Source: Arthrobacter hankyongi (GTDB lineage: Bacteria > Actinomycetota > Actinomycetes > Actinomycetales > Micrococcaceae). Taken from it: 64,000 bases of DNA. A program made the position numbers and the translations under genes. Under the pieces are notes generated by a model. The model saw only the letters and a list, made by a program, of their open reading frames with translations. It had not been told where the DNA came from and ran no database searches. Of this stretch, positions 42,437 through 59,925 are shown piece after piece. Within the stretch, counting starts at the first letter, position 1, and each line of letters opens with the position of its first letter. The DNA lies in NCBI RefSeq assembly GCF_022012395.1, contig NZ_JAKLTQ010000026.1:1-64000 (forward strand). The letters run 5' to 3'.

Positions 42437-42498
42437 GCGCCCACCATAGCCCACCGCGCCTCCCCGGCAACAGGGGTGCACGGCAACTGCAGCCGGAG

Positions 42499-42535
42499 CG
42501 TCAGTAACGCTGGACGTTAGCCTAATTCAATAGCG
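42499..42535 (-). repeat. RNVVEFRFNV repeat, copy 2 (degenerate)
   Basis: Shares the outer part (GCGTCAGTAACGCTGGACGTT) and CTAATTCAA with other copies, but the coding end is lost. It lies just upstream of fdhA, at the right border of the selenium island. Confidence 0.45.
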
Positions 42536-42566
42536 GGATGCCCGGCCCGCACACGATCGGCGAGCC

Positions 42567-43130
42567 TTATCGAGGCAGGTATCGCAGATAGGTAATGCCG
42601 TTGTCGAAGATTCTGTGTTCGGCCAGGCTCAGGTCGAGGTGCACGTCGTCAGGCAGGGCGCGCAAACCTCCGCCCACCATCTTGGGAACCACGAAGAACC
42701 GGAAGTCCTCGACCAGGCCCGCACGGATCGCGTCTGCCGCAACCGTGGGCCCGAAGATCTCGACCAGACCCTGGGCACGCTCCACGACTCGCTGCAGCTC
42801 GACCAGGCTCAGGTCCGGCACGATGCGGGCCCGGTCCGAAGTGAGCTCGTCGCCCGTCATGGTCGACGACACCACGATCTTGTCTATGCCCCGCCAGCGC
42901 CGGGCGAACTCCCGCTCAGCCGCAGGACGGCCCTCGGCGTCCGGATAGGTGTCCCAGTACCCCATCAACTTATAGGTCTTTCGCCCGAGCACCTCGGTCG
43001 ACACCTCGGCCATGCGATCGAGGTGGACAGCAAACACCGCATCGGTCGGGGCCGTCCACTGGAAGTCGCCGTCGGCATCGGCGGCGTAGCCGTCGATGGA
43101 CACGGTAGCGACATAGGCGAGGGTTCCCAC
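42567..43130 (-). CDS. Dihydrofolate reductase/RibD C-terminal family protein
   Basis: 187 residues of the RibD_C/DHFR-like fold. The N-terminus LAYVATVSIDGYAADADGDFQW and the internal segments EVLGRKTYKLMGYWDTYP and IVVSSTMTG are typical of stand-alone members, which probably reduce small molecules with NAD(P)H. No riboflavin genes are near. The start is GTG 43130 with GGAGG upstream. It lies in the accessory region next to the VOC gene, 95 nt away. Confidence 0.8.
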   Translation of the reverse strand: MGTLAYVATVSIDGYAADADGDFQWTAPTDAVFAVHLDRMAEVSTEVLGRKTYKLMGYWDTYPDAEGRPAAEREFARRWRGIDKIVVSSTMTGDELTSDRARIVPDLSLVELQRVVERAQGLVEIFGPTVAADAIRAGLVEDFRFFVVPKMVGGGLRALPDDVHLDLSLAEHRIFDNGITYLRYLPR

Positions 43131-43225
43131 GACCGTTCAGACCTCCTCAAGCTGGGTGGTTACCGGTGTCGGCAGCGAGATTAGCACCCGTGACGAGCCA
43201 GCCGTGAGCAAAAGCACTCAAGCCC

Positions 43226-43672
43226 TCAGCTCTTCTTCAGTTCCTCAGCGAGCATCACGATGATGCCGCTGGGACCGCGGACGTACGTGAGCCGATAGAC
43301 GTCCTCATAGTTCGCCACACCCCGAAGCGGACGGCAGCCGTGTTTCGCGGCTATCTCAAGGGCCTTGTCCAAATCGTCGACCGAGAAGGCGACGCGGTGC
43401 ATGCCAATCTCGTTGGGGCGGGTGGGCGCCGACTCGATCGCTTCGGGGTGGATGTATTCGAAGAGCTCGAGCCGACCGTGACCGTCCGGGGTCTGGAGCA
43501 TGGCGATGTTGGCGTGGTTTCCATCGAGTCCGACGGCAGTGTCGGTCCACTCGCCGCTGACCGTGTCACGGCCGACGACTGTGAGCCCGAGGTCGGTGAA
43601 AAAGGCGATCGCTGCTTCGAGGTCGCGAACGGCGATACCGACGTTCTCAAGTTTGATGGCCATGCGCGACAT
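43226..43672 (-). CDS. VOC-superfamily (glyoxalase/bleomycin resistance-like) protein
   Basis: 148 residues with the duplicated beta-alpha-beta-beta-beta fold of the vicinal oxygen chelate superfamily. Metal-ligand candidates are His in MHRVAFSVDDL and Glu in RLELFEYIHP. Such small proteins may isomerise or bind small electrophiles; the substrate is unknown. The start (43672 or 43663) is uncertain. Upstream, copy 3 of the repeat separates it from the HigBA module. Confidence 0.8.
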   Translation of the reverse strand: MSRMAIKLENVGIAVRDLEAAIAFFTDLGLTVVGRDTVSGEWTDTAVGLDGNHANIAMLQTPDGHGRLELFEYIHPEAIESAPTRPNEIGMHRVAFSVDDLDKALEIAAKHGCRPLRGVANYEDVYRLTYVRGPSGIIVMLAEELKKS

Positions 43673-43720
43673 GCTAACGAGCCGGGAGCGCAGAAAGAAG
43701 CCCCCTACCAGCCACGCGCC

Positions 43721-43768
43721 GCGCCAATATCGCTAGACGTTGAACCTGAATTCCACCCACGTTCCGGG
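43721..43768 (-). repeat. RNVVEFRFNV repeat, copy 3
   Basis: Minus-strand reading AWSRNV then a one-base insertion (GTGGGTGG for GTGGTGG), after which the remainder EFRFNV-TAG can be recovered in the shifted frame. Between the VOC gene and HigBA. Confidence 0.7.
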
Positions 43769-43873
43769 ACCATGCAACATTTACCGCCGGACCAGGTCCC
43801 GCCCAGCCACAGCCCCAGCGCGTACTACACACGCCCCCGGCCTCATACCAGCCCTCAACGCGCGGCAGCACTG

Positions 43874-44185
43874 TCATGCAACCTGGAGCGGCGTGATGGT
43901 GGCGATCTGATCTGAGACGCGGTCCTCAGCAAGGTCAAGATCGTACTGCGTCTGGAGGTTAAGCCAGAACTGCGGCGATGGGCCGAAATACTTCGCGAGC
44001 CGCAGCGCAGTATCGGCCGGAACAGCGCGCTTGCCGTGCACGATCTCATTGATTCTGCGCGGAGGTACGCCGATCGACACAGCAAGCTTGTTCTGCGTGA
44101 TACCAAGACCTTCAATGAAGTCCTCCATGAGGACTTCTCCCGGATGAATGGGGGCGAGCTTGTCACTCATATCAGTGGTAGCCAA
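43874..44185 (-). CDS. higA: HigA-family antitoxin (XRE helix-turn-helix)
   Basis: 103 residues. The signature is IHPGEVLMEDFIEGLGITQNKLA, then the recognition helix VPPRRINEIVHGKRAVPADTALRLAKYFG, as in HigA/VapI antitoxins. It should neutralise HigB and repress the operon. A TTG at 44185, preceded by GGAGGTGGAG inside the toxin gene, is a plausible start and overlaps the toxin by 14 nt; ATG 44170 is an alternative. Toxin-first order is the HigBA arrangement. Confidence 0.88.
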   Translation of the reverse strand: MATTDMSDKLAPIHPGEVLMEDFIEGLGITQNKLAVSIGVPPRRINEIVHGKRAVPADTALRLAKYFGPSPQFWLNLQTQYDLDLAEDRVSDQIATITPLQVA

Positions 44186-44453
44186 CGATCTCCACCTCCT
44201 CTGGCCCAGTGTCCGTCCACGTGAAGCAGATCCACCACTGGTCGTTGATCCTGATGCTGTGCTGACCAGGTCGATCGCCCCTCAACCGTTCAAGCCTGTT
44301 GCCGGGTGGTACTCGAAGATCCTCCAAGGACTCGGCCGCACCGATCTGGCGGAGCTTCCTCAGAGCGACCCGCTGAATCCTTGGATCCAGCGCCGGGACC
44401 CGCTCACGACGCCAGGGCCGTTCGGCGGATGAGTGGCCGAACGATCTGATCAC
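44172..44453 (-). CDS. higB: HigB-family mRNA interferase toxin
   Basis: 93-residue RelE/HigB-fold toxin expected to cut mRNA on the ribosome. The C-terminal motif INDQWWICFTWTDTGPEEVEIVGYH is diagnostic, and the basic segment LRVPPGNRLERLRGDRPGQHSIR carries likely catalytic/RNA-binding residues. Length is normal. It is upstream of higA and overlaps it. Repeat copies 3 and 4 flank the pair. Confidence 0.88.
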   Translation of the reverse strand: MIRSFGHSSAERPWRRERVPALDPRIQRVALRKLRQIGAAESLEDLRVPPGNRLERLRGDRPGQHSIRINDQWWICFTWTDTGPEEVEIVGYH

Positions 44454-44474
44454 GCCGCCATCACATAACGCGCT

Positions 44475-44530
44475 GCGTCAATAACGCTAGACGTCAAACC
44501 GAAACTCCCCCACGTTCCGCCACATAGAAA
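44475..44530 (-). repeat. RNVVEFRFNV repeat, copy 4
   Basis: Minus-strand reading MWRNVGEFRFDV-TAG with synonymous and conservative changes (GAG, TTT, CGG, TTT, GAC). Outer part GCGTCAATAACGCTAGACGT resembles copy 2. Immediately upstream of higB. The rest of the gap to 44722 shows nothing. Confidence 0.7.
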
Positions 44531-44721
44531 CCCTATACGCATCACGACGGATCATAGGATCACGGCCGCAGTCAGGTTTCCCGCGACCGCTCCGGGAACC
44601 AGGTGGCCGCTCGATGACCGGGCGGCTCGAAAACGCCGGGGAAGCAACCGACGGCACCCTTCAATGAGCCTACGCGCCGTCTTGGCGCCAGTCCGGCGCC
44701 GTGAGATTTGAAGGAATCGTC

Positions 44722-44765
44722 TTTTCCTGACAAGCTGTCGGAAAGATGCCGACGACATGTCGGCA
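44722..44765. promoter_or_regulatory. Two adjacent inverted repeats upstream of the ABC exporter
   Basis: TGCCGAC-gacat-GTCGGCA (44747-44765) is a perfect 7-bp inverted repeat. Just before it, TTTCCTGACA (44723-44732) and TGTCGGAAA (44736-44744) form an imperfect one sharing the TGTCGG half. They sit 35-78 bp before the exporter permease ATG and look like operators, possibly for the TetR protein at 46766. Confidence 0.5.
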
Positions 44766-44799
44766 ACTTCATCCTCCTCCTCTGAACCTAGGACTGCCA

Positions 44800-45942
44800 A
44801 TGTTCCTTGCTCTCCGCGAACTGGTGTTCGCGCGTGGCCGCTTCAGCCTGATGGGCGGTGTCATTGCACTCATCGCCGTGCTGATGGTGATGCTCTCCGG
44901 CCTTTCCTCGGGCCTCGTCAACGACGGCGTGTCAGGCCTGAAGGCGATGCCGGTGACCGCATTCGCCTTCGACCAGGGCACCAAGACCGACAACGCCTTC
45001 TCCCGCTCCGTGATCGATGACCAGCAGCTCAGCGCCTGGCGCGGCGTCGAGGGCGTGGCCGCCGCCGAGAAGATGGGCGTCGGTATGGCCAATGCCACCA
45101 CCGATTCCGGCAAGCAGGTTGACCTCACGCTTTTCGGCGTAGAGCCCGGCTCCTTCCTGGAACCTTCCCGCTCCGCAGGCACGGGCCTCGGAGATACCGA
45201 CGGCATCGTCGTCTCCTCTACCGCTAAGGCCGAGGGTGTCGACCTCGGCACGGTCGTAACGCTGGACCGGATCGGCACGAAGCTCAAAGTTGTCGGCTTC
45301 ACCGAAGGCCAGGCAACCTTCGGCCACGTCGACGTCGCCTACCTGCCGCTGAAGACCTGGCAGCTGATCGCCTCCGGCCGGGCCGCAGCCGGAATCCCGA
45401 GCGCCGCGCAGCTGTCCGCACTTAGTTTTGATACCGCCAGCGTCGTTGCCGTCCAGGCCAAGCCCGGCGCGAAGCTGGACCTTGCCGCCGGTGATACTGC
45501 CGCCGGAACGTCCAGCAAGTCATTGTCCGCCGCCTTCGACGCATCTCCCGGCTATGAGGCCGAGACCATGACCCTGAGCATGATCCAGGTCTTTCTCTAC
45601 GCGATCTGCGCCCTGGTGGTTGGCGCGTTCTTCACCGTGTGGACGATCCAGCGCAAGCACGAGATCGCTGTTTTGAGGGCCATCGGTGCTTCGACCGGCT
45701 ACCTGCTCCGGGATGGACTGGCGCAGGCCGCCATCCTGCTGGTGGGCTTTACCGCGCTGGGGGTCGCCGCCGGCCTCGGACTCGGCGCCGCCATGCCTGA
45801 CGCCATGCCGTTCGCGCTGGAGGCCGCCCCGATCGCCGTCGCCACGACTCTCACCATTGGTCTGGGGTTGATCGGCGCCGCCGTGGCCGTGGTGCGCATT
45901 TCCCGGATAGACCCGCTCAATGCCCTTGGAGGACAGCGATGA
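44800..45942 (+). CDS. FtsX/MacB-type ABC transporter permease
   Basis: 380 residues: an N-terminal helix (FSLMGGVIALIAVLMVML), a large extracytoplasmic domain of about 240 residues, and three C-terminal helices in the FtsX fold (MIQVFLYAICALVVGAFFTVW). This resembles DevC/MacB-type exporters rather than importers. The ATG at 44800 has AGGA upstream. Its stop overlaps the ATPase ATG (ATGA), and a TetR gene follows, suggesting a drug or metabolite efflux unit under local repression. Confidence 0.85.
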   Translation: MFLALRELVFARGRFSLMGGVIALIAVLMVMLSGLSSGLVNDGVSGLKAMPVTAFAFDQGTKTDNAFSRSVIDDQQLSAWRGVEGVAAAEKMGVGMANATTDSGKQVDLTLFGVEPGSFLEPSRSAGTGLGDTDGIVVSSTAKAEGVDLGTVVTLDRIGTKLKVVGFTEGQATFGHVDVAYLPLKTWQLIASGRAAAGIPSAAQLSALSFDTASVVAVQAKPGAKLDLAAGDTAAGTSSKSLSAAFDASPGYEAETMTLSMIQVFLYAICALVVGAFFTVWTIQRKHEIAVLRAIGASTGYLLRDGLAQAAILLVGFTALGVAAGLGLGAAMPDAMPFALEAAPIAVATTLTIGLGLIGAAVAVVRISRIDPLNALGGQR

Positions 45943-46670
45943 CCAACCCAACGTTCCCTGTGGCCGGCACGGGCCTTGCTGGCACGCCCCAAAGCACCGG
46001 CCTGTCCATCCGCCACGCTGTGATGGAACTCGGCGACGGCGGCACCCGGGTGACAGCCCTAGATGACGTCAGCCTCGACGCTGCCCCGGGCGAGTTCCTC
46101 GCCATTGTCGGGCCGTCCGGTTCCGGCAAATCCTCACTGCTCGCCGTCGCCGGGGCGCTGGCCACCCCGGATTCCGGAACAGTCACGGTCCACGGCCAAG
46201 ACCTTTCCCAGCTGAACCAGGGCCGACGTGCTGCCTTCCGACTCTCCAACATCGGCTTCGTGTTCCAGTCCGGAAACCTCATCCCGGCCCTGACCGCCGC
46301 AGACCAGCTCCGGCTAGTCAACCGGCTCGCGGGCGGCCCGAAGACCTTCGATCCCATTGCGCTGCTGGAATCCGTCGGCATGGCCCACCGCGCCGGGAAC
46401 CGGCCCGGCCAACTCTCCGGCGGCGAAAGGCAGCGCGTCGGCATCGCCCGCGCACTCGTCACCGGGGCGAAACTCCTGCTCGTCGACGAACCGACCGCGG
46501 CCCTGGACCGCACCCGCAGCCGCGAAGTAGTGGAACTGCTCGCCCGGCAAAGCCACGAGCACGGCGTCGCAACCGTCATGGTCACCCACGACCACGACGT
46601 CCTCGGCTACTGCGACCGCGTCGTCGAAATGGTGGACGGCCGCTTAGTCGCCGCCGCCCCGGTCGCCTAG
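45939..46670 (+). CDS. ABC transporter ATPase (LolD/MacB type)
   Basis: 243 residues. Walker A is [11 protein letters not shown], signature LSGGERQRVGIARAL, Walker B LLLVDEPTAALD and the H-loop VMVTHDHDV, all intact. The short single-domain form fits with the FtsX-type permease it overlaps by 4 nt. The pair is followed by a strong terminator. Confidence 0.92.
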   Translation: MTNPTFPVAGTGLAGTPQSTGLSIRHAVMELGDGGTRVTALDDVSLDAAPGEFLAIVGPSGSGKSSLLAVAGALATPDSGTVTVHGQDLSQLNQGRRAAFRLSNIGFVFQSGNLIPALTAADQLRLVNRLAGGPKTFDPIALLESVGMAHRAGNRPGQLSGGERQRVGIARALVTGAKLLLVDEPTAALDRTRSREVVELLARQSHEHGVATVMVTHDHDVLGYCDRVVEMVDGRLVAAAPVA

Positions 46671-46682
46671 GACGCCCCGTGC

Positions 46683-46721
46683 ACGGGCGCGGCGGCCTGC
46701 CCGACCGGCCGCCGCGCCCGT
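46683..46721 (+). terminator. Terminator after the ABC exporter
   Basis: Perfect 15-bp stem, ACGGGCGCGGCGGCC (46683-46697) with GGCCGCCGCGCCCGT (46707-46721), and a nine-base loop. Confidence 0.8.
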
Positions 46722-46725
46722 CGTA

Positions 46726-46746
46726 GGCTTGCTATGTAAGCAAGCC
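46726..46746. promoter_or_regulatory. Palindromic operator before the TetR gene
   Basis: Perfect 8-bp arms GGCTTGCT and AGCAAGCC separated by five bases, 19 bp before the ATG of the TetR gene. A typical TetR-family autoregulatory site. Confidence 0.65.
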
Positions 46747-46765
46747 GGCACCAAAGGACCCCGCA

Positions 46766-47365
46766 ATGCCCAGAATCAGCGCCGCAACCGTCGCGGAACA
46801 CCGCGCCGCACAGGAGCGCGCATTGCTGGACGCTGCGCACGAACTGCTGCAGGAAACATCCGAAGCGCCGACCATGGCCGCCGTGGCCTTGAGGGCCGGG
46901 CTCTCAAGGACCAGCGTCTACCAGTACTTCGACTCCCGCCAGGACCTGCTCCAGGCCCTGGTGCGTGATATCTTCCCCCGCTGGACCGAGCGCGTCACCG
47001 GGGCTATGGCGGACGCCGCCACCACAGCGGACCGCATCCTGGCCTACGCCCTGGCCAACGTGGACCTTGTCGCCGAAGGCGCCCACGCCGTAGGTTCGGC
47101 GTTGGCCGCGCTGGCCCCGGGCGCCGAACTGGACGAACAGGCCACCAGGATGCACCGCCAACTGCAGGAACCGCTGATCGAAACGCTCACGGATCTCGGG
47201 GTTGAGGACCCCGAGTCACTGGCCGAGATGATCAACTCCGTCGTCCACGCCGGCACCCGCATGCTCGAATCCGGGCAAACGCTGAAACAGGTCCACTCCC
47301 ACCTCAGGACGCTGCTCGGCCCCTTCGTGGCAGAACGCCAAACCGCAGAAGCCACGAGGAATTAA
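46766..47365 (+). CDS. TetR/AcrR-family transcriptional regulator
   Basis: 199 residues with the TetR DNA-binding domain at residues 14-60 (ERALLDAAHELLQ, then MAAVALRAGLSRTSVYQYFDSRQDLLQALV). The C-terminal ligand-binding domain is all-helical and unassigned. A palindrome upstream is a likely operator. It follows the ABC exporter on the same strand, separated by a terminator, so it probably has its own promoter and controls itself and perhaps the exporter. Confidence 0.88.
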   Translation: MPRISAATVAEHRAAQERALLDAAHELLQETSEAPTMAAVALRAGLSRTSVYQYFDSRQDLLQALVRDIFPRWTERVTGAMADAATTADRILAYALANVDLVAEGAHAVGSALAALAPGAELDEQATRMHRQLQEPLIETLTDLGVEDPESLAEMINSVVHAGTRMLESGQTLKQVHSHLRTLLGPFVAERQTAEATRN

Positions 47366-47448
47366 TTCCCTTCCAACCGCACTCCAGCCACGTTGGTTTC
47401 CCCACGCCGGAGGCTAATGCGGCCTAGGAAAGCAACCTGGCCGGAGTG

Positions 47449-47595
47449 CTACTCGACCAAAAGCTTGAGCCTCCGATGAGGGTCCGTCGTGGAGACATCA
47501 AACACGGTCTCGCTGATGTCCTTGCTCTCCCGAGGTTTTCGATTCTCGTAAGGACGACGTGGCGATTGACACCGTATTCGAGTCGATCAGCTCTC
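47449..47595 (-). pseudogene. C-terminal remnant of a decayed gene
   Basis: The interval 47366-47813 contains no intact gene. On the minus strand, RLEYGVNRHVVLTRIENLG in one frame continues after a one-base shift as DISETVFDVSTTDPHRRLKL and ends at TAG 47449. Each piece reads like protein, which suggests a truncated and frameshifted remnant. The parent family is not recognised. Confidence 0.3.
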
Positions 47596-47683
47596 CAGCC
47601 CCCGATTTCTCGAAACCGGTATTAAGTTGACCCCCGCTGCCAACAGCTTTCTGCCGGAAGAGGGGTCCTGAAATCATGCGATC

Positions 47684-47730
47684 CTAGACATTGAATCTGA
47701 ATTCCACCACGGTCCGGCACGGAAAAACCT
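47684..47730 (-). repeat. RNVVEFRFNV repeat, copy 5
   Basis: Minus-strand reading VTAEVFPCRTVVEFRFNV-TAG, the longest coding-like copy. Codons GAA TTC AGA TTC AAT GTC differ synonymously from other copies. Between the gene remnant and VapC. Confidence 0.7.
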
Positions 47731-47813
47731 CAGCTGTCACCCACCGGCCACGGGTATCGCCCACACGCAGCAGCGATACCTGCAGCCACATCGATCGCCG
47801 CTCTTCGAAGACA

Positions 47814-48442: not shown

Positions 48443-48461
48443 GATAAACTCCTTCCGTACT

Positions 48462-48595: not shown

Positions 48596-48640
48596 TCAGA
48601 CGTTAAACCGGAACTCCACCGCGTTCCGTCACGGAGCAAC
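48596..48640 (-). repeat. RNVVEFRFNV repeat, copy 6
   Basis: Minus-strand reading RNAVEFRFNV-TGA, preceded by AGEVAP and an in-frame stop. It lies between vapB and the HepT gene. Confidence 0.7.
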
Positions 48641-48666
48641 CTCACCGGCGGCCGGTCATGGAGGTC

Positions 48667-49003
48667 TCAATCTGCTTCGAGCGATTGAATGTGCCTGCTG
48701 ATTGTTGGCAGATCGACGACCATCGTGTCCCAGACCGCCTCATAGTCGGTGCCTTCGTAGTGATGCGCCAAGCGGTCCCGCATCCGCTTGATCAGCGTCC
48801 ACGGCATCTCGCGATGCCGGTCGGTCGTGTCGGCGCTCAGACGAGCGACGTTCCCGCCGATCTTCATGCTCAGCGATTCCGCGGCCAGACCCGGCACGTT
48901 GTCGGGATCACCGAGGTACCACTCACGGCCGCGCGCCACGAGATTCGCACCAACGCCACAGGCGAACGATCTCCCTCAGCACCGCAGCGTCCCGCTCGTT
49001 CAT
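48667..49003 (-). pseudogene. HepT-family ribonuclease toxin, frameshifted
   Basis: Two frames together give a complete HepT (DUF86) protein. The first begins at ATG 49003, overlapping the antitoxin stop (ATGA), and reads NERDAAVLREIVRLWRWCESRG before a premature stop. The second, from about 48937, reads GREWYLGDPDN and continues to the diagnostic HEPN motif RDRLAHHY and the normal C-terminus. A single extra base in the GC tract near 48930-48940 explains the break. Either the toxin is inactivated or the sequence has an error there. A GTG at 48939 could yield a truncated 90-residue protein. Confidence 0.65.
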
Positions 49004-49443
49004 ACCGCGACGGCCGTTGCCAAGATCTCGTGATCGGCGCGCAGACCGCCGTCGGTCACCACGTCGACCTCGACACCGAGCAGCTCCCCCGCTTCTGCAG
49101 CGAATGCCGCAACCGTGAGCAGGCCGGTGCCCGGCGAACGGGTAACAAGGATGTCCAGATCGCTGCCGGGGCGGTCGGTGCCGCGTGCCGCGGAGCCGAA
49201 GACGCGGACGTTGCTGAGGCCATAGCGCCCGGCGAGACTCACCAGGTCGGCACGGCGCGCAGCGAGCGCATCGTGAGGCAGTGGCCGCGCGGCCGCGCGA
49301 AGGCGCTCCAGCATCTCGGCCGAGACCCTGCGCCGCCCAGCCTCGTAGGCGGCAACGTTCGGCTGAGCGACCCCGGACCGTCGGGCTAGCTCTGCCTGAC
49401 TGAGGCCAGCAGCCTCACGAAGCTCCCGGACAGGGTTCGCCAT
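49000..49443 (-). CDS. MntA-like nucleotidyltransferase antitoxin with XRE domain
   Basis: 147 residues in two domains. The N-terminal XRE helix-turn-helix (VRELREAAGLSQAELARRSGVAQPNVAAYEAG) is followed by a minimal nucleotidyltransferase with the catalytic GSAARGTDRPGSDLDILV (GSxARG plus DxD) pattern. In HepT/MntA systems this enzyme AMPylates the toxin tyrosine. The fused helix-turn-helix could give autoregulation. Its stop overlaps the hepT start, so the two were coupled. Confidence 0.8.
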   Translation of the reverse strand: MANPVRELREAAGLSQAELARRSGVAQPNVAAYEAGRRRVSAEMLERLRAAARPLPHDALAARRADLVSLAGRYGLSNVRVFGSAARGTDRPGSDLDILVTRSPGTGLLTVAAFAAEAGELLGVEVDVVTDGGLRADHEILATAVAV

Positions 49444-49615
49444 GACCTGATCGTATCGCGTGAGATGCCCAGATTGACAGCAGATGCCGCGGACTCAGCC
49501 ACGCCATGAGCCCCACTTCTTGCGGACAGGACGGAACCGCTTGAGAGGAGGCGGCAGAAGGGATGTTTGCGGAAGGTGCCAGGATCGGACATGGCAATGC
49601 TGGGAGAACCGGCGG

Positions 49616-52121: not shown

Positions 52122-53279
52122 GTGACGCATACCCTCAGCTCATTTGACGTTGCCGCCGGCCGGCCCGGTCCGGTGGCCGGTGACCCGATCCGGATCGAGC
52201 CGGTGCCACCGCTGCGCCTCCTGCGGGCCAAGAAAGCCTATACAACGCGCTTCCTGGCCGACCGGCTGGACCGTTCACCCGACGGGTTTTCCCTTCGGGA
52301 AGGACCCGGAGTGGCACCTCAAGCGGGTGATATTGTGCTCGCGAAAGTTGCGGGGATCGGACAACATCCCAAACTGGAAAGCCCGGTATCCCGCCGCCAG
52401 GCCCTGTTTATTGGTGACGAGATCCTGGTGCCCTACGGCAACCGGTACGCCGCGGATCAGTTCCTAGCCCAGGTGCCGCCCAGCCTGGATCCGTGCCACC
52501 TGGTCGCCGCCGGCGGAGTAGCGGGTCTGGTGATCGCCCAGCATGCCGCGATGGGCACGGCCACCCGGATTACCCCGGTCGGGCTGCTCGCCGACGATTC
52601 GGGGGTGGTCAACCTCAGGCAGCTGGCCCCGCAGCAGTTGGATCCGACAGCTACGACGACCCCGCGGGACGCGGCTCCCGTGCAGCGGCCGCCGGTCATT
52701 GCCGTCCTGGGAACGTCCATGAACTCCGGCAAATCTACGGCACTGAGCTGCCTGGCCAGGGGGTTGACCGAGGCCGGTCTGGCGGTCGCGGCGGGCAAGG
52801 CCACCGGAACAGGCTCCGGCAACGATCCCGGCATGTATGTGGACGCCGGTGCCGCCAAGGTCATGGACTTTACCGACTTCGGCTTTCCCACCACGTTCGG
52901 ACTGGACTACGCCAGCATCCAGGCCGTGTTCTCCGGCCTGGTTGCCGAGCTCAGCGATCCGGCCACCGATGTGGTCCTGATCGAGATCGCCGACGGAGTG
53001 TACCAGGGCGAAACGCACCGGCTGTTGTCCGACCCTCTCTTCCGGGATGCCGTCGATGCGGTGGTCTTCACCGCCGCCGATGCCCTCGGTGCCACCGCCG
53101 GACTGCAGGTCCTGCGGGCCGCCGGCATCCCGATCGCCGCGGTGTCCGGCGTCCTGACGTCCTCTCCGATCGCGGCGCAAGAGGCGTCGGCGGCCGTCAA
53201 CGTCCCGGTTGTGCAAACCGTCTCGCTGTGCGAGCCTTCGGTGGCAGTGACTTTACTGCCGCAGGCGGCAGACGGTTAA
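52122..53279 (+). CDS. P-loop NTPase, DUF1611-like
   Basis: 385 residues. A C-terminal P-loop domain has Walker A GTSMNSGKST (about residue 200), then GKATGTGSGND and a Walker-B-like VVLIEIADGVYQG. The N-terminal 190 residues are all-beta with LVPYGNRYAADQF. This pattern resembles DUF1611-type kinases/ligases, some of which act in dipeptide or cofactor metabolism; the substrate is unknown. GTG 52122 has AAGGAG five bases upstream. It is 18 nt from the next gene, an ABC exporter, and probably co-transcribed with it. Confidence 0.6.
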   Translation: MTHTLSSFDVAAGRPGPVAGDPIRIEPVPPLRLLRAKKAYTTRFLADRLDRSPDGFSLREGPGVAPQAGDIVLAKVAGIGQHPKLESPVSRRQALFIGDEILVPYGNRYAADQFLAQVPPSLDPCHLVAAGGVAGLVIAQHAAMGTATRITPVGLLADDSGVVNLRQLAPQQLDPTATTTPRDAAPVQRPPVIAVLGTSMNSGKSTALSCLARGLTEAGLAVAAGKATGTGSGNDPGMYVDAGAAKVMDFTDFGFPTTFGLDYASIQAVFSGLVAELSDPATDVVLIEIADGVYQGETHRLLSDPLFRDAVDAVVFTAADALGATAGLQVLRAAGIPIAAVSGVLTSSPIAAQEASAAVNVPVVQTVSLCEPSVAVTLLPQAADG

Positions 53280-53297
53280 CCCTGTTGCGGAACGGAC

Positions 53298-54923
53298 ATG
53301 AACCAGGCTGACACCGGCACGCCGAAACTGCCCAGACTGCTGGTTGGACCGCGGCGGAAACTGATGGCCCTGCTGGTCGCGACGGGGCTGGGCATGGCGG
53401 TCCTGTCCGGGGCCAGCGCGTTCATGATGGCCCACCTGCTCAGGGCCGCTGATGCCCGGACCCGCACCGTCGCGGTGGCGGGCCTGCTCGCCGCGGCCGG
53501 CGGCATCGCTGCCGGGCGCATCGCCGAGCGGGTGCTGGCCGAGCGGCTCGGCCAGCACTACGTCCAGGAACTGCGCACCGGCCTGATGGCCGCCGTCCTG
53601 GCGGACGGGAAGGGACCGTCGGTGGGCATCACCATAGCCCGGATCACCAACGATCTGACCAGCGTACGGAACTGGATCACCCAAGGCATCGCCCCGCTGG
53701 CAGTCGGCATTCCAGTCCTCGTCGGGACGACGGCCGCGCTCTGGTTCCTGTCACCGCCGCTGGCCCTGGCCATGGCGCTGCCGCTGGGCTTTCTCGGCGC
53801 CATCCTGGCGGTGCTGACGCAGCCGGCCTTCGCCAAGGCCCGGGCACTGCGCAAAAAGCGCGGCCGGCTGGCAGCACAGGTCTCCGATACCGTCGCTGCC
53901 GCCGTGATGATCAGGGCCGCCGGCGGCGAACACCGCGAGGTCCAGCAGGTCGGCAGGCTCGGCGGCGAAGTGGCAGAGGCCGCCGTCGCCCGCGCCAGAG
54001 TGGGCGGATACATCCGCGCCGCCGCGGGTGCCAGTGGAACGGTCACCGTGGTCATCGTCGCCGCCACCGGTTCCTGGTTGTCGATCCACACGGCAACAAC
54101 GGCCGCCGCCCTGACCCTGGTCGGCCTGCTCGCGCACCACGTGAACGACCTGGGCCGTGTGGCAGAATTCCGCCAGACCTACAACGCGGCCAAACGCATG
54201 ATTGCTCCCGCCCTGGCCCCGGCAGCCGGGCTGCCGGCAGACCACGATCTGTCCCTTCCCGGGGATGCCGTCCGGACGGCGATCACCGGGCCGCCAGAGT
54301 CCGGCGGCGCCACCGTCCGGATCTCCGGCCTGCGCCTGGACGCGGACCGGCCGGTGCCGGAGCTCGCCGCCCGGCCGGGCGACCGGATCGTGCTGAAGAC
54401 GAACGAACCGGGGGAAGCGACGGAAGTTTTTGAAAAACTGCTCGCGCTGCGCCCGAACCCGCAGCTGAACATCCGCGTGGCAGGCAACGACCTGCGCGCG
54501 GCCCCCGGGCCGGAACGGCGCCTCCTGGCCGGCTACGCCGCCAGGGGAGCTTTCACCGAGCGCGGCACCATTGCCCGGGCGGTCCGCTACCGTCGCCCCG
54601 ACCTGCCACGCGGCGGAACCGGCGAGATCCTGGCCCGTGTTGAGCTGGCTACCCGGGTGGCCCAGCTGCCTAAGGGCGAACACACCACCCTGCGGCGCGG
54701 CGGCGAGCCCCTGACAGTCTCGGACCGGGCCAGGCTGCAGCTGGCCCGGGCCACGCTCGGCGACCCGCCGTTGCTGCTGCTGAACCACATCGACTCCGAC
54801 CTCGGACCGGAAGGCTGCCGGATGCTGGCGGAAGTCCTCAGGTCCTACCCCGGCGTCGCGATTATCGCCTCGGACCATCCCGGCCGGTTCGTGTCCGCCT
54901 ATACGGTCTGGGACCTGCACTGA
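53298..54923 (+). CDS. ABC exporter-like protein with degenerate ATPase domain
   Basis: 541 residues. The N-terminal 300 residues form six membrane helices of the ABC exporter type (start LMALLVATGLGMAVLSGASA). The C-terminal half aligns with an ATPase domain, but Walker A is replaced by LKTNEPGEATEV, the signature is LTVSDRARLQLARATLG and Walker B ends LLLLNHIDSD without the catalytic Glu pair. The frame is intact. It may be a regulatory or partner half-transporter, or a protein that has lost transport. It follows the P-loop gene in an apparent operon. Confidence 0.7.
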   Translation: MNQADTGTPKLPRLLVGPRRKLMALLVATGLGMAVLSGASAFMMAHLLRAADARTRTVAVAGLLAAAGGIAAGRIAERVLAERLGQHYVQELRTGLMAAVLADGKGPSVGITIARITNDLTSVRNWITQGIAPLAVGIPVLVGTTAALWFLSPPLALAMALPLGFLGAILAVLTQPAFAKARALRKKRGRLAAQVSDTVAAAVMIRAAGGEHREVQQVGRLGGEVAEAAVARARVGGYIRAAAGASGTVTVVIVAATGSWLSIHTATTAAALTLVGLLAHHVNDLGRVAEFRQTYNAAKRMIAPALAPAAGLPADHDLSLPGDAVRTAITGPPESGGATVRISGLRLDADRPVPELAARPGDRIVLKTNEPGEATEVFEKLLALRPNPQLNIRVAGNDLRAAPGPERRLLAGYAARGAFTERGTIARAVRYRRPDLPRGGTGEILARVELATRVAQLPKGEHTTLRRGGEPLTVSDRARLQLARATLGDPPLLLLNHIDSDLGPEGCRMLAEVLRSYPGVAIIASDHPGRFVSAYTVWDLH

Positions 54924-55112
54924 TCAGCCAACCGGCGGCGCCGCCCTTCCCCGCAGAGGCCAGGCGGCGACGCAGGGTGTAAGTATTGGGCCAGGCGGCA
55001 AGCGGAATGACGCCGCGGCGGACCGGAGGGACGGTCCCGGAGCCGGGCCGGCTCCTGATCCGCGGCCCGTCCGGGGACCGGGACTCCCCCGGTGGACGAA
55101 GGGGGAGCACGC

Positions 55113-55808
55113 ATGACCCACCTGTCGCTCGTGGACGGCCCGGTGCCGCTGCTGTTCAACCTGCTGGCCGCACTCGGGGCGCTGTGGCTGCTGGCCGGCA
55201 ACCTGCCGGTACTGGTCATGATCCACGGCCGGCCGGGCGGACCCGGCGCCTGGATTTCCTCCGGCAACCTCGCTGCGGCCATGGATAACTACGCCGCCCA
55301 CCACGGGCTGGCCCGCTGGTGGTGATGCCGGACCTGTCCATGGGCGGGGCGTCCCGGTGGCCGCTGTGCCTGGACTCGCAGGTGGCCCGATCCGCCACCT
55401 ACCTGAGCGTGGACGTGCCGGCCTGGGTGCACAGCACACTCGGGGCCGGCACCGCCGGCAGCCGGCAGTGGGCCATCGGCGGACTCTCCTCCGGTGGGAC
55501 CTGCGCCCTGCAGTTGGCGGTGAACTTCCCGCAGGCCTATCCCACCTTTCTGGATCTCTCCGGCGAGACCCAGCCCTCCGTCCGCGGCGGCCGTGCCCGG
55601 CTGGTCGACGAATACTTCGACGGCGACGAGGACGCGTTCATCGCCCAGAACGCTCTGGACGTGCTGGCCCGGCACAGATTCCCGCACACGGCCGGCCGGT
55701 TCGTTGCCGGCACCGCGGACAGCAAATACGGAACCGAACTAGACCCGCTCTACGGGTTTTCGACGGCTGCTGGCCGACGCCATGGTCCGCCGGCTGCTTG
55801 AGGACTGA
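55113..55808 (+). pseudogene. Alpha/beta-hydrolase esterase, two frameshifts
   Basis: Pieces of one esterase lie in successive frames. The first (from ATG 55113, with GGGGGAG upstream) includes LVMIHGRPGGPGAWISSGN and ends HHGLARWW-stop. The second, after a one-base loss near 55313, continues VVMPDLSMGG with the nucleophile GLSSGG. The original C-terminus (LLADAMVRRLLED-stop) is again one base out of frame near 55760. Either this is a pseudogene or both C-tract losses are sequence errors. It follows the degenerate ABC exporter on the same strand. Confidence 0.6.
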
Positions 55809-55814
55809 TCTTCC

Positions 55815-56384
55815 CTAGCGTCCCAGCGAGCGGCCGATCTGCCCGATGGCGGCATCATAGGCCGCATCCCAGGTCCAGCCAGCAGCCGGTGCACCGGCCA
55901 GCTCCAGTGACACCAGCCCGTGGACTTGGCCCCACACAACGCCGACCATCGAGGCGATCTCGTCATCCGCTGCTCCGGGCAGCGCTGCGGCAACCGCGGC
56001 GAACAGCGGCGCGATCGATGGCCCGGCGGCTCCCGGCGTCGGCCGGCACGGGACCTGGCTGGCCAGTGAGCCGCCGAACATCAGGCCGTAGAGGACCGGA
56101 TGCTCCAGCGCCCAGGTTCGGTAGGCCCGGCCCAATGCTTCGAGGCCGGCAGCGGCGGCTTCTTGTTGGGAGGCGGCAAAGGAAGCGAAGCCGTCGTCGA
56201 GCACGGCAGTCAGCAGTTCCGCCTTGCCCCCGAAGAGTGAGTACACCGCGGTCGTCGACGTCCCGGCGGTAGCGGCAATACTGCGCAGCGAGACGGAGGC
56301 GGCGCCGTCGCGGGCGATTAGGGAGGCTGCGGTGTCGAGCAGCCTGCGACGCAGGGTCTCATCGTGGACTATGGGTCTTGCCAT
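55815..56384 (-). CDS. TetR/AcrR-family transcriptional regulator
   Basis: 189 residues from ATG 56384. The N-terminal DNA-binding domain is clear (LLDTAASLIARDGAASVSLRSIAATAGTSTTAVYSLFGGKAELLTAV). The C-terminal domain fits the TetR_C group typical of regulators of efflux and oxidoreductase genes. A palindrome lies in the gap to the divergent gene at 56440, so it probably represses both. No strong ribosome site, suggesting a leaderless start. Confidence 0.85.
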   Translation of the reverse strand: MARPIVHDETLRRRLLDTAASLIARDGAASVSLRSIAATAGTSTTAVYSLFGGKAELLTAVLDDGFASFAASQQEAAAAGLEALGRAYRTWALEHPVLYGLMFGGSLASQVPCRPTPGAAGPSIAPLFAAVAAALPGAADDEIASMVGVVWGQVHGLVSLELAGAPAAGWTWDAAYDAAIGQIGRSLGR

Positions 56385-56398
56385 GGGACCAGTATTGC

Positions 56399-56424
56399 AT
56401 AACACTGTTCTGTAACACTGTTAT
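56399..56424. promoter_or_regulatory. Palindromic operator between TetR and DUF4188 genes
   Basis: ATAACA (56399-56404) and TGTTAT (56419-56424) are inverted arms, and AACACTGTT occurs twice as a direct repeat (56401-56409 and 56414-56422). It sits between two divergent start codons. Confidence 0.65.
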
Positions 56425-56439
56425 GGACAGGAGAGGCAC

Positions 56440-56943
56440 ATGTCGGAACAAGTGCACGCAGGACGTTTCACTGCCGATCCCGGGGGCGGCCCGGTGACAG
56501 TCTTCCTGATCGGGATGCGAGCCAACCGGTGGTGGAAGTTCGGGAAGGTGGCACGGGTGGGGGCGGCCATGCCCAGGATGCTTGCCTATTTGGCCAAGAC
56601 GCCGGAGGCCGGGTTGCTGGGCTACCAGCAATGGTTCGGGCGGACCACCATCATGGTCAGCTACTGGAAGAGCCCGGAGCATCTGCAGCGGTTCGCGGCC
56701 GACCGGTCGGCGCCGCACCTTGAGCCCTGGCGCCGGTTCATGCGCGAATCCGCCGGCACTGGCGACGTCGGCGTATGGCACGAAACCTACGAGACGATGC
56801 CGGGTGGCAGGGAAAGCGTGTATAGCGACATGCCGGTCTTCGGGCTGGCAGCTGCTACCGGCCACGTACCGGTGGGAGTGGGACTGAACACCGCACGCCA
56901 GCGTTTGGAAGCAGACGCGGTCAGCCGGCGTCTGTCCGAATGA
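56440..56943 (+). CDS. DUF4188 family protein
   Basis: 167 residues of the DUF4188 family, which resembles heme-binding or monooxygenase ferredoxin-like folds. The characteristic opening VFLIGMRANRWWKF and LGYQQWFGRTTIMVSYWKS are both present, with a C-terminal YETMPGGRESVYSDMPVFGL. Function is unknown; some annotations call these monooxygenases. GGAG precedes the ATG. It is divergent from the TetR gene across a palindrome, so it is likely its target. Confidence 0.8.
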   Translation: MSEQVHAGRFTADPGGGPVTVFLIGMRANRWWKFGKVARVGAAMPRMLAYLAKTPEAGLLGYQQWFGRTTIMVSYWKSPEHLQRFAADRSAPHLEPWRRFMRESAGTGDVGVWHETYETMPGGRESVYSDMPVFGLAAATGHVPVGVGLNTARQRLEADAVSRRLSE

Positions 56944-57016
56944 GCCGGCTCAGCCAAGGCTCCCGGACCAACACCTGCACCGCACAGCAAACATCCGGTA
57001 ACCAGGCATTACAGGC

Positions 57017-57063
57017 AAAGCTGCTATACCACTGCCGGTTCGCGCCGGCGGGGCAGCTTTTTT
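57017..57063 (+). terminator. Terminator after the DUF4188 gene
   Basis: AAAGCTGC (57017-57024) pairs with GCAGCTTT (57053-57060), followed by a T-run; a second small stem (GCCGG/CCGGC) lies in the loop. Confidence 0.75.
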
Positions 57064-57137
57064 GCACTGCAAGAACAGGATCTACCGGCGCAGTTGCATA
57101 TTCAAAAGTAACGACCGGCCAGCATTACGTCCGGTGG

Positions 57138-57410
57138 TCAGCGGTTGCGCTCGGGTTCGACCAGCACCAGGATCGTGTCGGGGCGTACGCCGTCGAATTT
57201 CATGGCGTCGGCCGCGGCTTCGGACTGCATCATTCGCTGGAACGTGTCTGTGTCCGGGACTTCGACGATCAGCCCGACGCGGTTGGTTTTCTCCGGGTCC
57301 ACAAAGGTCCGAACAGTCATGCCCAACGGTCCGAAGAGTTCCTGGCGCCGCGGCGAGCTGAGCCAGTGGTCAACGTCGTCGACCTCGTGAAAGATTAATA
57401 GGGTTGCCAT
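57138..57410 (-). CDS. Small dimeric alpha/beta-barrel-like protein
   Basis: 90 residues, not assigned. The pattern LLIFHEVDDVDHWLSSPRRQELF, then VGLIVEVPDTDTFQRMMQSEAAADAMKFDGV resembles small ferredoxin-like proteins that form dimeric barrels. The ribosome site AGAGG is 6 nt upstream. No signal peptide. The stretch 57411-57852 holds no convincing gene. Confidence 0.6.
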   Translation of the reverse strand: MATLLIFHEVDDVDHWLSSPRRQELFGPLGMTVRTFVDPEKTNRVGLIVEVPDTDTFQRMMQSEAAADAMKFDGVRPDTILVLVEPERNR

Positions 57411-57852
57411 CGTTGCCTCTGCTTTCGAATGGCGGCATTAGGAGCCGGATCGGTAGGCAATCGCGTGAGGAACTCCTAACCCACGCAGAAATTACCACAG
57501 CCGCCTAATCTTCGATAGGCAGCCAGAAAACCGCCAAGATCGCTCACGGTGGTCTTCGCATCTTCAGCCTTTGTTGCACCGCCGGCGACCGCATTGGGAG
57601 GCGCCACCCTCCGGCGCCGACGAACCGGCCAAACTTCCGAGCTTCCCGTCGAACATTTTCGTCGACGACAGCGCATACGTTTCGTCACCGACCCATATCG
57701 GTCCAGGGCATCGATTCCCCGACAACCCTCTCGTAGCCCACCGCGAAGCCTCCGGCCCCTGCCGGGTGTTGGGGTGAAACGAGGAGATCACCGTACACTG
57801 CCGGGAGAGCCGCAGGGTAGCGGACGGCCTGGGCCGGTGATAGGGGTTCCGG

Positions 57853-58233
57853 ATGAAGGACACACGGTACGACACCGGTGAAGCCGCCGGAACGGCCTTG
57901 GAGGAAATGCCCGTCCTGGTGAAATGGCTGTGCCAGGTCCTGACGCCGGAACTGGTGGTGCATCTGGCCGGGGCACGGGAGCCTGGAGTGGTCCGCGGGT
58001 GGGCCAGCGGCCGGCTGGTGCCGTCGGCGCCCGAAGAGCACAGACTGTGGTTCGCCTACGACCTCCTGCGCAGAATCGAGGATCTCCAGGGCAGGGAGGC
58101 GACCCAGGCCTGGTTCATGGCGGTCAATTCACGGCTTGGCCAGCGGTCCCCGCTCAGGGCGATCCGGGAAGGCCGGTTCCATGAAACGGCCGCTGCCGCC
58201 GGTACGCTCCTGGAAGGTGCCCGCGAGAGGTGA
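57853..58233 (+). CDS. MbcA/ParS-like antitoxin domain protein, paralogue 1
   Basis: 126 residues resembling the toxin-binding domain of RES-partner antitoxins (MbcA/ParS/Xre, DUF2384). The core ELVVHLAGAREPGVVRGWASGR includes a short helix-turn-helix-like part, followed by LWFAYDLLRRIEDLQGREAT and the family end SRLGQRSPLRAIREGRF. No RES-domain toxin lies next to it. A close paralogue follows 213 bp later, so this looks like a duplicated orphan antitoxin or a regulator of another role. Confidence 0.6.
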   Translation: MKDTRYDTGEAAGTALEEMPVLVKWLCQVLTPELVVHLAGAREPGVVRGWASGRLVPSAPEEHRLWFAYDLLRRIEDLQGREATQAWFMAVNSRLGQRSPLRAIREGRFHETAAAAGTLLEGARER

Positions 58234-58446
58234 GTCACGGCTTGACCCGTTCCCGGCGGCCCCTCACCGCTGCCGAGGGGCCGATCTGGTCATCGGGCCA
58301 TACGTACCATCGGGCACCGTCGGCCCCTCCACCGTGAGCGCCCGGGGCCCGCCGCCCACCCGGGGAGCGTGACCCGGTTGTGTCCTCTGCTGTCCATCCC
58401 GGCCCGCAGGTAGGCTCAGGGCCAGGTCAGCGGACAGGAGGCACCG

Positions 58447-58809
58447 ATGGGCATCCCGGAGATCCCGGCAGAACCCGACATCCGCACGGTGGCCGCGCAG
58501 CTGATAGGCCACCTCGGGCCGGACCTGGTCGCCGCGCTGGCCGGCAGCGGTGAGTACAGCATCGCTACCCGGTGGCGCACGGAGGACGGCCGGGAGCCGG
58601 ATGCGACAGAGGCGCGGCGGCTGCGCTTCGCCTGGGCGGAGTGGTATCTCCTAGCCGGAGCGGAGGGGCCGGATACCGCCCGCGCCTGGTTGGCCAAAGC
58701 CAACCCGTGGCTCGGGGACGACTCCCCCGTCACTGCTATCGGGCAAGACCGGTTCCGGGAGGTCGCCAGCGCCGCGGCCCTCAAGATCAACTACGACTTC
58801 GAGGCCTGA
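58447..58809 (+). CDS. MbcA/ParS-like antitoxin domain protein, paralogue 2
   Basis: 120 residues, AGGAGG six bases before the ATG. It aligns along its length with the preceding paralogue: DLVAALAGSGEYSIATRW, LRFAWAEWYLLAGAEGPDTARAWL and PWLGDDSPVTAIGQDRF. The ARAWL and the AIxxxRF parts are the best-known features of the ParS/MbcA toxin-binding domain. The gene downstream is a carboxymuconolactone decarboxylase-like protein on the other strand, not a RES toxin. Confidence 0.6.
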   Translation: MGIPEIPAEPDIRTVAAQLIGHLGPDLVAALAGSGEYSIATRWRTEDGREPDATEARRLRFAWAEWYLLAGAEGPDTARAWLAKANPWLGDDSPVTAIGQDRFREVASAAALKINYDFEA

Positions 58810-58858
58810 GCGGCCTGCCGCGTTCACGCCGGCGCCGTCCCGACATCCCTGACTCGTT

Positions 58859-58901
58859 CAGCCTTCGGCTTCGGCTTCAGCCTTCGGCTTCGGCTTCAGT
58901 G
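58859..58901. repeat. Short tandem repeat at the 3' end of the CMD-family gene
   Basis: Two copies of about 18 bases (CTTCGGCTTCGGCTTCAGC) in tandem. It encodes the Ala/Glu tail (EAEAEG) and partly lies beyond the stop codon. Confidence 0.6.
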
Positions 58902-59209
58902 GCGGCTGCGGCTTCGATCCCGATGGCAAAGCCCAGTGCCATGGTGAGGTTGCTGGCTGCAGCCACGACCCGGGGGGTGCCCACAATGGGCGCAACGGCG
59001 ATGAGGAGGCCCTGGACATCCTCCAAGGTGATTCCCACGTCCGCTGCGGGGCCGGCGTTGAGCAGGTAGGAGGCGGGCGGGGCATCCACTGCCGCGAGTG
59101 CTGCGATCCGTGCCAGCATCATCTCGCGAGGTTCGAGGTTGCAGCGTTCGAGCGATGCGCTGGTAATCTCCAGGAGGGCGTCGCTGACTGGGTTCTCTTC
59201 TTCGGCCAT
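58877..59209 (-). CDS. Carboxymuconolactone decarboxylase-like protein
   Basis: 110 residues of the CMD/AhpD-like all-helical family. LMLARIAALAAVDAPPASYL and LEDVQGLLIAVAPIVGTPRVVAAASNL are typical. The usual Cys-x2-Cys of AhpD is absent, so disulfide reductase activity is unlikely. ATG 59209 has GGAGAG 6 nt upstream. The acidic tail comes from a tandem repeat. Confidence 0.75.
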   Translation of the reverse strand: MAEEENPVSDALLEITSASLERCNLEPREMMLARIAALAAVDAPPASYLLNAGPAADVGITLEDVQGLLIAVAPIVGTPRVVAAASNLTMALGFAIGIEAAAATEAEAEG

Positions 59210-59326
59210 GGTCATCTCTCCATCTGGTTGCGGGGCCGCGGGTCGGGAGACGCGATGAGATCGGATCTCCACAACTGTCCTGCCAACCTATTCCGCTCAA
59301 GCGGAGGACGACATCACCCGCAGAGG

Positions 59327-59464
59327 ATGACCGCGCCTGTGGCCATGGTAGTCACTGCGATTTATCTGCTGGCAATAGCCGCATGCGTCATATTTTCTGC
59401 TTTCTTAGTCGCCGCTTCTCTCACCATGCGCCACGCAGAATTGCTGAAATCTCATTCTCGCTGA
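59327..59464 (+). CDS. Possible 45-residue single-helix membrane peptide
   Basis: Opens TAPVAMVVTAIYLLAIAACVIF and continues hydrophobically for one helix with a basic end (KSHSR). AGAGG is directly before ATG, too close for a normal site. May be a real small membrane protein or chance. The following 59465-59820 shows no convincing gene. Confidence 0.3.
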   Translation: MTAPVAMVVTAIYLLAIAACVIFSAFLVAASLTMRHAELLKSHSR

Positions 59465-59826
59465 CCGGACGCTGCAACTCGCACCACACCTTCCTTAAGG
59501 AAATGTTGAGTCGAAGGATCCCTCAAAGAATGCTTTCTCGGGCGGACCAACCGCGCATGGAAGAATCACGGCATGAATATGGAAGAGCGGTGGCAGGCCG
59601 AGGACTGCCGGAAAATCCTGGTGAAGCTGCAAGTATTAGCTCGCGCTGCGCGGCCTCAGATAAAAACGCCTGCCGCAGGCATGAGAAGGCTGTCAGGCGG
59701 GCACAGTGCTGGCTTCCGAACTACGACGCCGAATCTCGGCCGGCCACCGAGATCGTCCTCGCGGCCAGGCACGTCTTCGATTCCGACGTCGTAAGCACTC
59801 CCAACCAGCTGGCCAGATGATGCAAA

Positions 59827-59866
59827 AAAACGCCGCCCGGCACTCGAAAGTACCGGGCGGCGTTTT
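59827..59866. terminator. Terminator hairpin
   Basis: AAAACGCCGCCCGG pairs with CCGGGCGGCGTTTT across 12 bases, with A and T tracts on both sides, so it could act in both directions. Confidence 0.8.
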
Positions 59867-59883
59867 GCCAGGATAAGCATCGA

Positions 59884-59925
59884 GGCTACACATTAAACCT
59901 AATTCAACCACGTTCCGTAACCGAA
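59884..59925 (-). repeat. RNVVEFRFNV repeat, copy 7
   Basis: Minus-strand reading IRLRNVVELGLMCS: the RNVVE part is intact but the end has a deletion. It directly abuts the broken end of the oxidoreductase fragment. Confidence 0.6.

Follow-up and report, generated by a model that had tools for sequence, protein, structure and literature searches.

Seven repeats in Arthrobacter hankyongi are probably attachment sites of a cassette array at the 3′ end of ychF

The staphylococcal cassette chromosome (SCC) and the Enterococcus cassette chromosome (ECC), both located at rlmH, are known cases of mobile DNA at the end of a housekeeping gene. Passages of PMC6222049 describe the ends of ECC as direct repeats of ~50 bp, with inverted repeats in the right-hand and circle sites, and liken them to SCC sites. 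For serine integrases, the structure-based model in sections of PMC3783163 has the zinc domain closer to the crossover by 5 bp on attB compared with attP, which gives rise to a corresponding shift between half-sites. According to the same sections, efficient recombination of attL and attR, whether with themselves or with any other site, requires a directionality factor. With respect to ychF, the only integration site found in literature text is the attB of a pneumococcal prophage beside this gene (excerpts of PMC8637289). The portion of PMC10083194 consulted does not mention ychF, and no ychF cassette arrays in Actinobacteria were found in the literature searched, bioRxiv and most subscription papers being outside its reach. 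Here, we describe seven repeats in a 64,000-nt stretch of A. hankyongi DNA (RefSeq assembly GCF_022012395.1, contig NZ_JAKLTQ010000026.1, positions 1 to 64,000; hereafter the window). The repeats are likely to be the attachment sites of mobile cassettes, which were inserted in tandem at the 3′ end of ychF and apparently moved by a large serine recombinase (LSR). Each site consists of a ~25-bp arm (P arm) joined at a GT dinucleotide to a second arm (B arm) formed by the last codons of ychF and its stop. ECC sites have a similar layout and therefore provide a layout precedent for the sites of the array.

A first-pass annotation, made from the letters of the window without database searches, had reported seven same-orientation copies of a repeat whose minus-strand reading is RNVVEFRFNV, in most copies followed by a stop. 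All seven copies were recovered within a few bases of their reported places, and all are on the minus strand. The peptide stood only in part: EFRFNV is read in four of the seven copies and EFRFDV in one, with an immediate stop in four, whereas the complete RNVVEFRFNV-stop occurs in none, and the exact RNVVEFRFNV is confined to the copy with its core at 32606, where it reads on into Q. The better preserved sites are located at 48596..48644 (RNAVEFRFNV-stop), 47684..47732 (RTVVEFRFNV-stop), 44487..44535 (RNVGEFRFDV-stop, with the central GT changed to GG), 43733..43781 (VEFRFNV-stop, with a small indel at the core) and, 10 kb further downstream of the present array, 32603..32651 (RNVVEFRFNV without the stop). 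Two others are degenerate. The site at 59886..59933 has a P arm and a ychF-like B arm, the latter with a one-base deletion, and is 91% identical over 46 nt to a copy of the same genome at C23:290365 (C23 being another contig of the assembly). The decayed site at 42494..42540 (ends approximate) is the downstream end of the present array, and beyond it lies a chromosomal flank that is found directly behind ychF in the same-genus genome G009. The 30-nt core shows 3-7 mismatches to the consensus at 32606, 43736, 44490, 47687 and 48599; the copy at 59888 has 10 in an ungapped comparison, and that at ~42499, with an internal deletion of ~10 nt, was missed by a scan allowing 11. Five mononucleotide shuffles scanned on one strand yielded four hits at 11 mismatches and none below, and the real window holds five more hits at 10-11 mismatches that are not sites; a 3-mismatch search returned two matches in the window compared with none in 100 shuffles. 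The genome has seven further copies, in a single orientation, on contig C23 (290382 to 306745).

Judged from its matches elsewhere, EFRFNV-stop is the C-terminus of YchF. The core pattern was found at 120 or more loci in GTDB genomes; 112 of the 120 matches listed are ychF 3′ ends (exact-pattern scan, then tblastn), and by eye three of the remaining eight resemble ychF ends and five show a P-arm-like left side. The A. hankyongi ychF is located at C23:269492-270556, upstream of the seven further sites and on the same strand. A strict pattern had at least one match in 119 of 295 genomes, many single matches being ychF's own end, and at least two in 40 of the 295 (counted from the table), compared with none for the reversed control. 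The tail thus belongs to a housekeeping ATPase and not to one known transposase family, the latter being the origin that the first-pass annotation had held to be damaging to its argument.

A scan with the left arm only, in which codons were not selected, returned 72 sites in 42 stretches compared with four on the reverse strand. VEFRFNV-stop is exact in 46 of these 72 sites, and the other 26 differ or are out of frame. Among the 63 best sites, variation affects above all the third codon positions and, in Arg, the first; the stop alternates between TAG, TAA and TGA, one Phe codon has C as its last base in 31 cases and T in 28, and the second positions of the seven VEFRFNV codons are constant in 55-60 of the 63. 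By this variation at degenerate positions, the mainly synonymous change that had been taken as a signature of protein-coding selection extends beyond the window, and it sits at sites that are mostly outside ychF today. One of the two explanations offered with it, a recombination site inside a coding end, proved right, the coding end being that of ychF. The other, tails left by a repeatedly inserted and deleted gene family, found no support, since the inspected sites carry ~20 nt of ychF, preceded by an unrelated recombinase arm. The exception to this short carriage is a 104-codon ychF 3′ piece that lies inside the array of G189 besides a full ychF (locus L205, turned coordinates 13068-13379); the same locus has a third, ychF-like end at 17551.

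The anatomy of the sites points to a serine recombinase. Counted from the GT, the arm motif starts at 20 nt in 52 of the 88 array P arms and in 12 of the 17 arms at junctions between ychF and an LSR element described below, and at 15 nt in 55 of the 88 B arms, the latter position being partly fixed by the search pattern. The P and B half-sites differ in this way by the 5-bp shift reported for serine integrases (PMC3783163). Moreover, the P arm of the repeats is a mirrored copy of the arm at the ychF/LSR-element junction, the two differing by as little as one mismatch. Forward P′ arms (five or fewer mismatches to three typed arms) were detected exclusively at ychF or no farther than ~0.6 kb from an LSR gene, and not at array sites. 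The B arm varies by codon synonymy, the P arm is fairly constant, and the paired arms do not co-vary by eye. Two other arrangements were observed: a third kind of right arm, FRF(A/S)(V/I)-stop with an AACCTCT-like motif ~22 nt from the GT (L202 6404, L203 5618, L208 11948 and L224 3196), which is possibly the arm of another integrase, and a second imperfect B arm after the stop codon (L203 7446, L206 8558, L201 14879 and L231 9573, the last two in turned coordinates).

The position of the arrays was examined in 20 loci chosen for multiple copies. ychF is present on 16 of these stretches, and its end is the first array copy in 15 of the 16; in the sixteenth, from G124, ychF ends FRFAI. In 42 stretches, 104 cores are sense and none antisense, a count that tests uniformity within a stretch only, as stretches lacking ychF were turned by majority. 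By context, 16 cores are adjacent to ychF (the gene's own end in 15 cases and a partial copy of it in G189) and 88 are internal. The distance from ychF to the flank that starts at window 42502 is 66 bp in G009, ~2.5 kb in G005, 3.4 kb in G006, 5.8 kb in G002 and 34 kb in G008. This flank has no match in the same-genus genomes G001, G003, G004 and G007; a short stretch like window 42535-42637 is present soon behind ychF in G001 and G007, and in G003 a homologue of window 29736 begins 782 bp behind ychF. Given the latter arrangement, the segment 32606-42499 looks like an older insert, of which the site at 32603..32651 is probably the right end. These distances show insertion between ychF and a fixed flank within the genus. 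In A. hankyongi itself, ychF is on contig C23 and the flank on C19, and the intervening DNA amounts to at least 36.5 kb and 24.3 kb, respectively; from the order in relatives, we infer that the C23 and window arrays form one array, the window being its far end.

A candidate enzyme is encoded by the first element behind ychF in the same genome. The gene at C23:281170-282684 is the only PF07508 match in the A. hankyongi genome, and its product has both Resolvase (PF00239) and Recombinase (PF07508) domains. The element also holds EcoRI-type and D12 methylases, an AAA protein, a resolvase, a relaxase and a NikA-like protein, and a degraded P arm lies ~20 bp from the LSR start codon. In NCBIfam, the LSR scores highest with CcrB (1.2e-22) and next with XisF, CcrC and CcrA, all weak matches, and its matches to phage and plasmid proteins (481 and 155 records) are all below 60% identity. 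An interrupted resolvase-domain relative (39% identity, one TGA) is located at C66:65294-65776, unlinked to the array. With the 228 N-terminal residues of the LSR as the sole query, 295 genomes were searched and an LSR clade was delimited, comprising 16 genomes at 46% identity or more and G044 (40%, taken for its nearness to a site). In all 17 clade genomes examined, ychF lacks FNV and ends in a new, element-borne tail, which has GxTS and a KK or RK end in 16 of the 17 (SGSASKR in G023); the DNA with which this tail starts mirrors the array P arm. ychF ends EFRFNV-stop in all nine other same-genus genomes, including G002 and G004, which have 40% LSR matches elsewhere. In most cases, the LSR gene and ychF share a contig and are 30 kb or less apart; the distance is 37 kb in G196, and in G250 and G174 the two genes are on different contigs. 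Read from these junctions, the LSR element is a site-specific insertion at ychF. The mirrored arm, the 5-bp shift, the altered tails and the fragments of the LSR start that adjoin sites in G053 and G044 together strongly indicate that the enzyme of the cassettes comes from this clade. The element-borne tail is conserved past the recombinase arm in the 17 genomes, with synonymous variation, which suggests selection on the altered YchF.

Comparison of the DNA between sites adds evidence of mobility. Taken together, the 20 chosen loci and C23 contain 68 complete units, each bounded by neighbouring cores. They measure 560-10,592 bp, with a median of 1748 bp, and a simple gene picker assigned one open reading frame (ORF) to 26 of them, two to 17 and three to 11, i.e., one to three in 54 of 68. 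Whole cassettes with sites at both ends are shared between genomes, for example by C23 and G006 (655 bp, 93.7% identity) and by G240 and G285 (1.2 kb, 95.4%). Twenty strong pairs are homologous from the core onward, and in five of them the shared DNA follows ychF in one genome and a P arm in the other. By homology, the same cassettes are shown to occupy different positions and to occur in different species. In the 10 pairs with unlike left arms, which are not independent of each other, B-codon agreement was 0.915 compared with 0.817 for non-homologous pairs, a level reached by 2 of 10,000 draws; the B half therefore tends to go with the DNA to its right.

The following mechanism would be consistent with these observations. 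A cassette would extend from its own B half to the next P half. A circular cassette with a P.B site would land at the B.B site of ychF, and crossover at the GT would swap the ychF end for the synonymous copy of the cassette. YchF would keep its EFRFNV end, and the former B half would come to lie beyond the cassette, next to the P half at its far end. A series of such landings would produce sites in a single orientation, each with B codons that move together with the DNA to their right. Such P.B × B.B entry would explain why the ychF end has a B arm when a cassette comes first, why the inner sites are P.B and why the B codons follow the cassette. Most cassettes would rely on an enzyme supplied in trans. 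The wider proposal, a serine-integrase cassette-capture platform in which free P.B cassettes are caught at the B.B end of ychF, in effect an "integron" on another enzyme class, is tentative, and we put its chance at somewhat under even.

Several points weigh against the reading of the repeats as sites of an LSR-driven array. Apart from the left-arm-only scan, all counts come from patterns favouring coding-conform B arms, and the limits given above on the B-side motif position and on the independence of the homologous pairs belong here as well. The arm motif was found in none of the 17 left (ychF) halves of attB. Three pairs with G008 agree in their B codons at 0.75-0.85 only. The right end of the A. 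hankyongi LSR element has a degraded P arm only and no clear B arm, and contigs C23 and C19 are joined by inference only. The bound of the LSR clade is partly post hoc, and six genomes at 41-44% identity, above G044, fell outside the tail examination (G138, G179, G185, G206, G234 and G273). In G053, which has an LSR fragment only, ychF ends FRFSI-stop and not in the altered tail. Eighteen of the 20 array genomes have no clade member among their LSR matches, so the arrays would persist passively or be served in trans; tblastn detected no LSR homologue in the 20 array loci, and the left ends of the units are B arms only. Considering that attL and attR depend on a directionality factor, the proposed entry is not a canonical reaction, and excision and integration by the clade LSR are predicted only.

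The main rival holds that canonical LSR elements accreted in tandem at ychF and decayed, the integrase having since been lost, so that the arrays are remnants of the cis-mobilizable element (CIME) type with no special chemistry. Tandem accretion with decayed elements is described for integrative mobilizable elements (IMEs) in parts of PMC5704250, LSR start-codon fragments adjoin sites in G053 and G044, and most array genomes are without the LSR clade today. However, integration of a canonical element gives ychF a P′ arm and an altered YchF tail and deprives the next arrival of a B.B site, whereas the ychF-adjacent array site is of the B.B type (16 cores, found with the coding pattern). The restriction of forward P′ arms to ychF and the vicinity of LSR genes, together with the small size of the units, also speaks against accretion, which we consider rather unlikely on balance. 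It is appreciably more doubtful that host XerCD or another unlinked enzyme uses the array sites and that LSR elements merely exploit the same site. The absence of the clade from most array genomes fetched would be in keeping with such an enzyme, but the arm of the LSR element mirrors the array P arm and fits the LSR half-site rule, and we take the array site to be unlike dif.

An integron-like system, in which a tyrosine recombinase folds single-stranded sites, would be in line with same-orientation cassettes of mostly one to three genes and with toxin-antitoxin and defence cargo. Nevertheless, PF00589 matches (E up to 1e-8) were absent by coordinate comparison from the array stretches of the 21 genomes searched, and G231, G240, G264, G151 and G035 have just two such matches each genome-wide, presumably XerC and XerD. 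The would-be stem shows no co-variation by eye. The attC reading was rejected on orientation, this apparent lack of co-variation and the lack of a linked tyrosine integrase, and we regard an integron-like system as very improbable. Rolling-circle (ISCR-like) one-ended transposition, prompted by duplications that start at the repeat, was dropped as whole cassettes with both end sites were found. Finally, a regulatory palindrome, an RNA element or a leader peptide ending in EFRFNV, which could account for codon-level conservation and a stop in most copies, can practically be dismissed, as the genes between sites run in both directions (87 same, 61 opposite), array homology breaks at the core and the G009 site is nearly empty.

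The window array comprises several recognizable cassettes. On the minus strand, the segment 47733..48595 encodes a VapB-like antitoxin (48224-48553) and a PIN-domain protein (47814-48227), 43782..44486 a HigB-like toxin (44172-44453) and a helix-turn-helix protein (43874-44185), and 42541..43732 a glyoxalase-fold protein (43226-43672) and a RibD-C domain protein (42567-43130). The cassette at 44536..47683 carries three plus-strand genes, for an FtsX-like permease (44746-45942), an ABC ATPase (45939-46670) and a TetR regulator (46766-47365). The long inter-site stretch 48645..59885 (11 kb) includes genes for a phosphoesterase, an ABC transporter membrane protein, TetR and a monooxygenase-like protein, among others, and may hold undetected decayed sites. 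At 30171-32504, the window has a 777-codon ORF with many internal repeats at multiples of 42 nt, whose Pfam matches are many weak coiled-coil families. On contig C23, three near-identical units (290366-303267, loci L025 and L026; 97.7-99.4%) start with the same YjdM-family gene (PF03831), and rhodanese, aldo/keto reductase, histidine phosphatase and RF-1-domain genes are present in the units of this contig. Each YjdM-family copy has a possible start codon within the B arm of its site, and therefore the site may also give cargo its start. ORFs of a repeated short motif (EILAARLK-like), ~70-75% alike at the DNA level, occupy C23:286233-287227 (L025).

A broader scan of cargo covered 102 of 133 listed ORFs, the 31 omitted being mostly short, very long or repeats of an included cassette. 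Among the best 25 of 79 Pfam families, Abi_2/AbiD and histidine phosphatase occur in three cases each, GmrSD, SspE, PIN, YefM and acetyltransferases in two each, and there are many singletons. Anti-phage and toxin-antitoxin genes (AbiD, GmrSD, SspE, PIN, YoeB and HigB) are present in inter-site DNA, which is a statement of presence and not of enrichment over background.

These results suggest that the ychF end is a landing site for small mobile cassettes in the family to which the window belongs, and the array sites give a route to finding their cargo, including anti-phage and toxin-antitoxin genes. They also illustrate that a repeat can look protein-coding while being outside any gene, and they raise the testable question of a serine integrase that builds multi-cassette arrays, which is unexpected under the attP/attB rule. 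If the proposed reading is correct, defence, toxin-antitoxin and metabolic genes would form a store that is reshuffled across the whole family; the ychF end would be renewed by captured cassettes, and the integrase element would give YchF a different conserved tail (GxTS...KK type) that may alter YchF function.

Compared with the known systems, the arrays share with SCC and ECC an insertion at the 3′ end of a conserved housekeeping gene, a serine recombinase and variable cargo. They differ in their target, which is ychF and not the 3′ end of rlmH, and in the enzyme, which falls far below the Ccr cut-offs (80 of 900 bits for CcrB, 46 of 700 for CcrA and 49 of 900 for CcrC) and matches in the N-terminal catalytic part only. 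Moreover, the hosts belong to the actinobacterial family of the window, one LSR is found instead of a CcrAB pair, and the arrays are made of cassettes with mostly one to three genes. Integron arrays contain small cassettes with toxin-antitoxin and defence cargo, uniformly oriented sites that follow the attC consensus, a fixed first site and a linked tyrosine integrase. The ychF arrays have the small cassettes, the uniform site orientation, such cargo and the fixed first site in common with them, but there is no linked tyrosine integrase and no sign of attC-type structure, and the first site is the end of a housekeeping gene. With tandem accretion of IMEs and CIMEs, as presented in parts of PMC5704250, they share LSR-less units between att sites at a gene end, and the first element of A. 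hankyongi has relaxase and NikA-like genes; the differences are the P.B type of the array sites, the B.B type of the ychF end where a cassette comes first and the many small units. Large serine integrases acting on attP and attB resemble the present LSR and its sites in the Resolvase and Recombinase domains, the 5-bp P/B shift and the GT centre, whereas multiple tandem P.B sites are not expected from canonical members. The array at ychF is an SCC-like insertion with integron-like arrays, and it lies outside the membership of both SCC and integrons.

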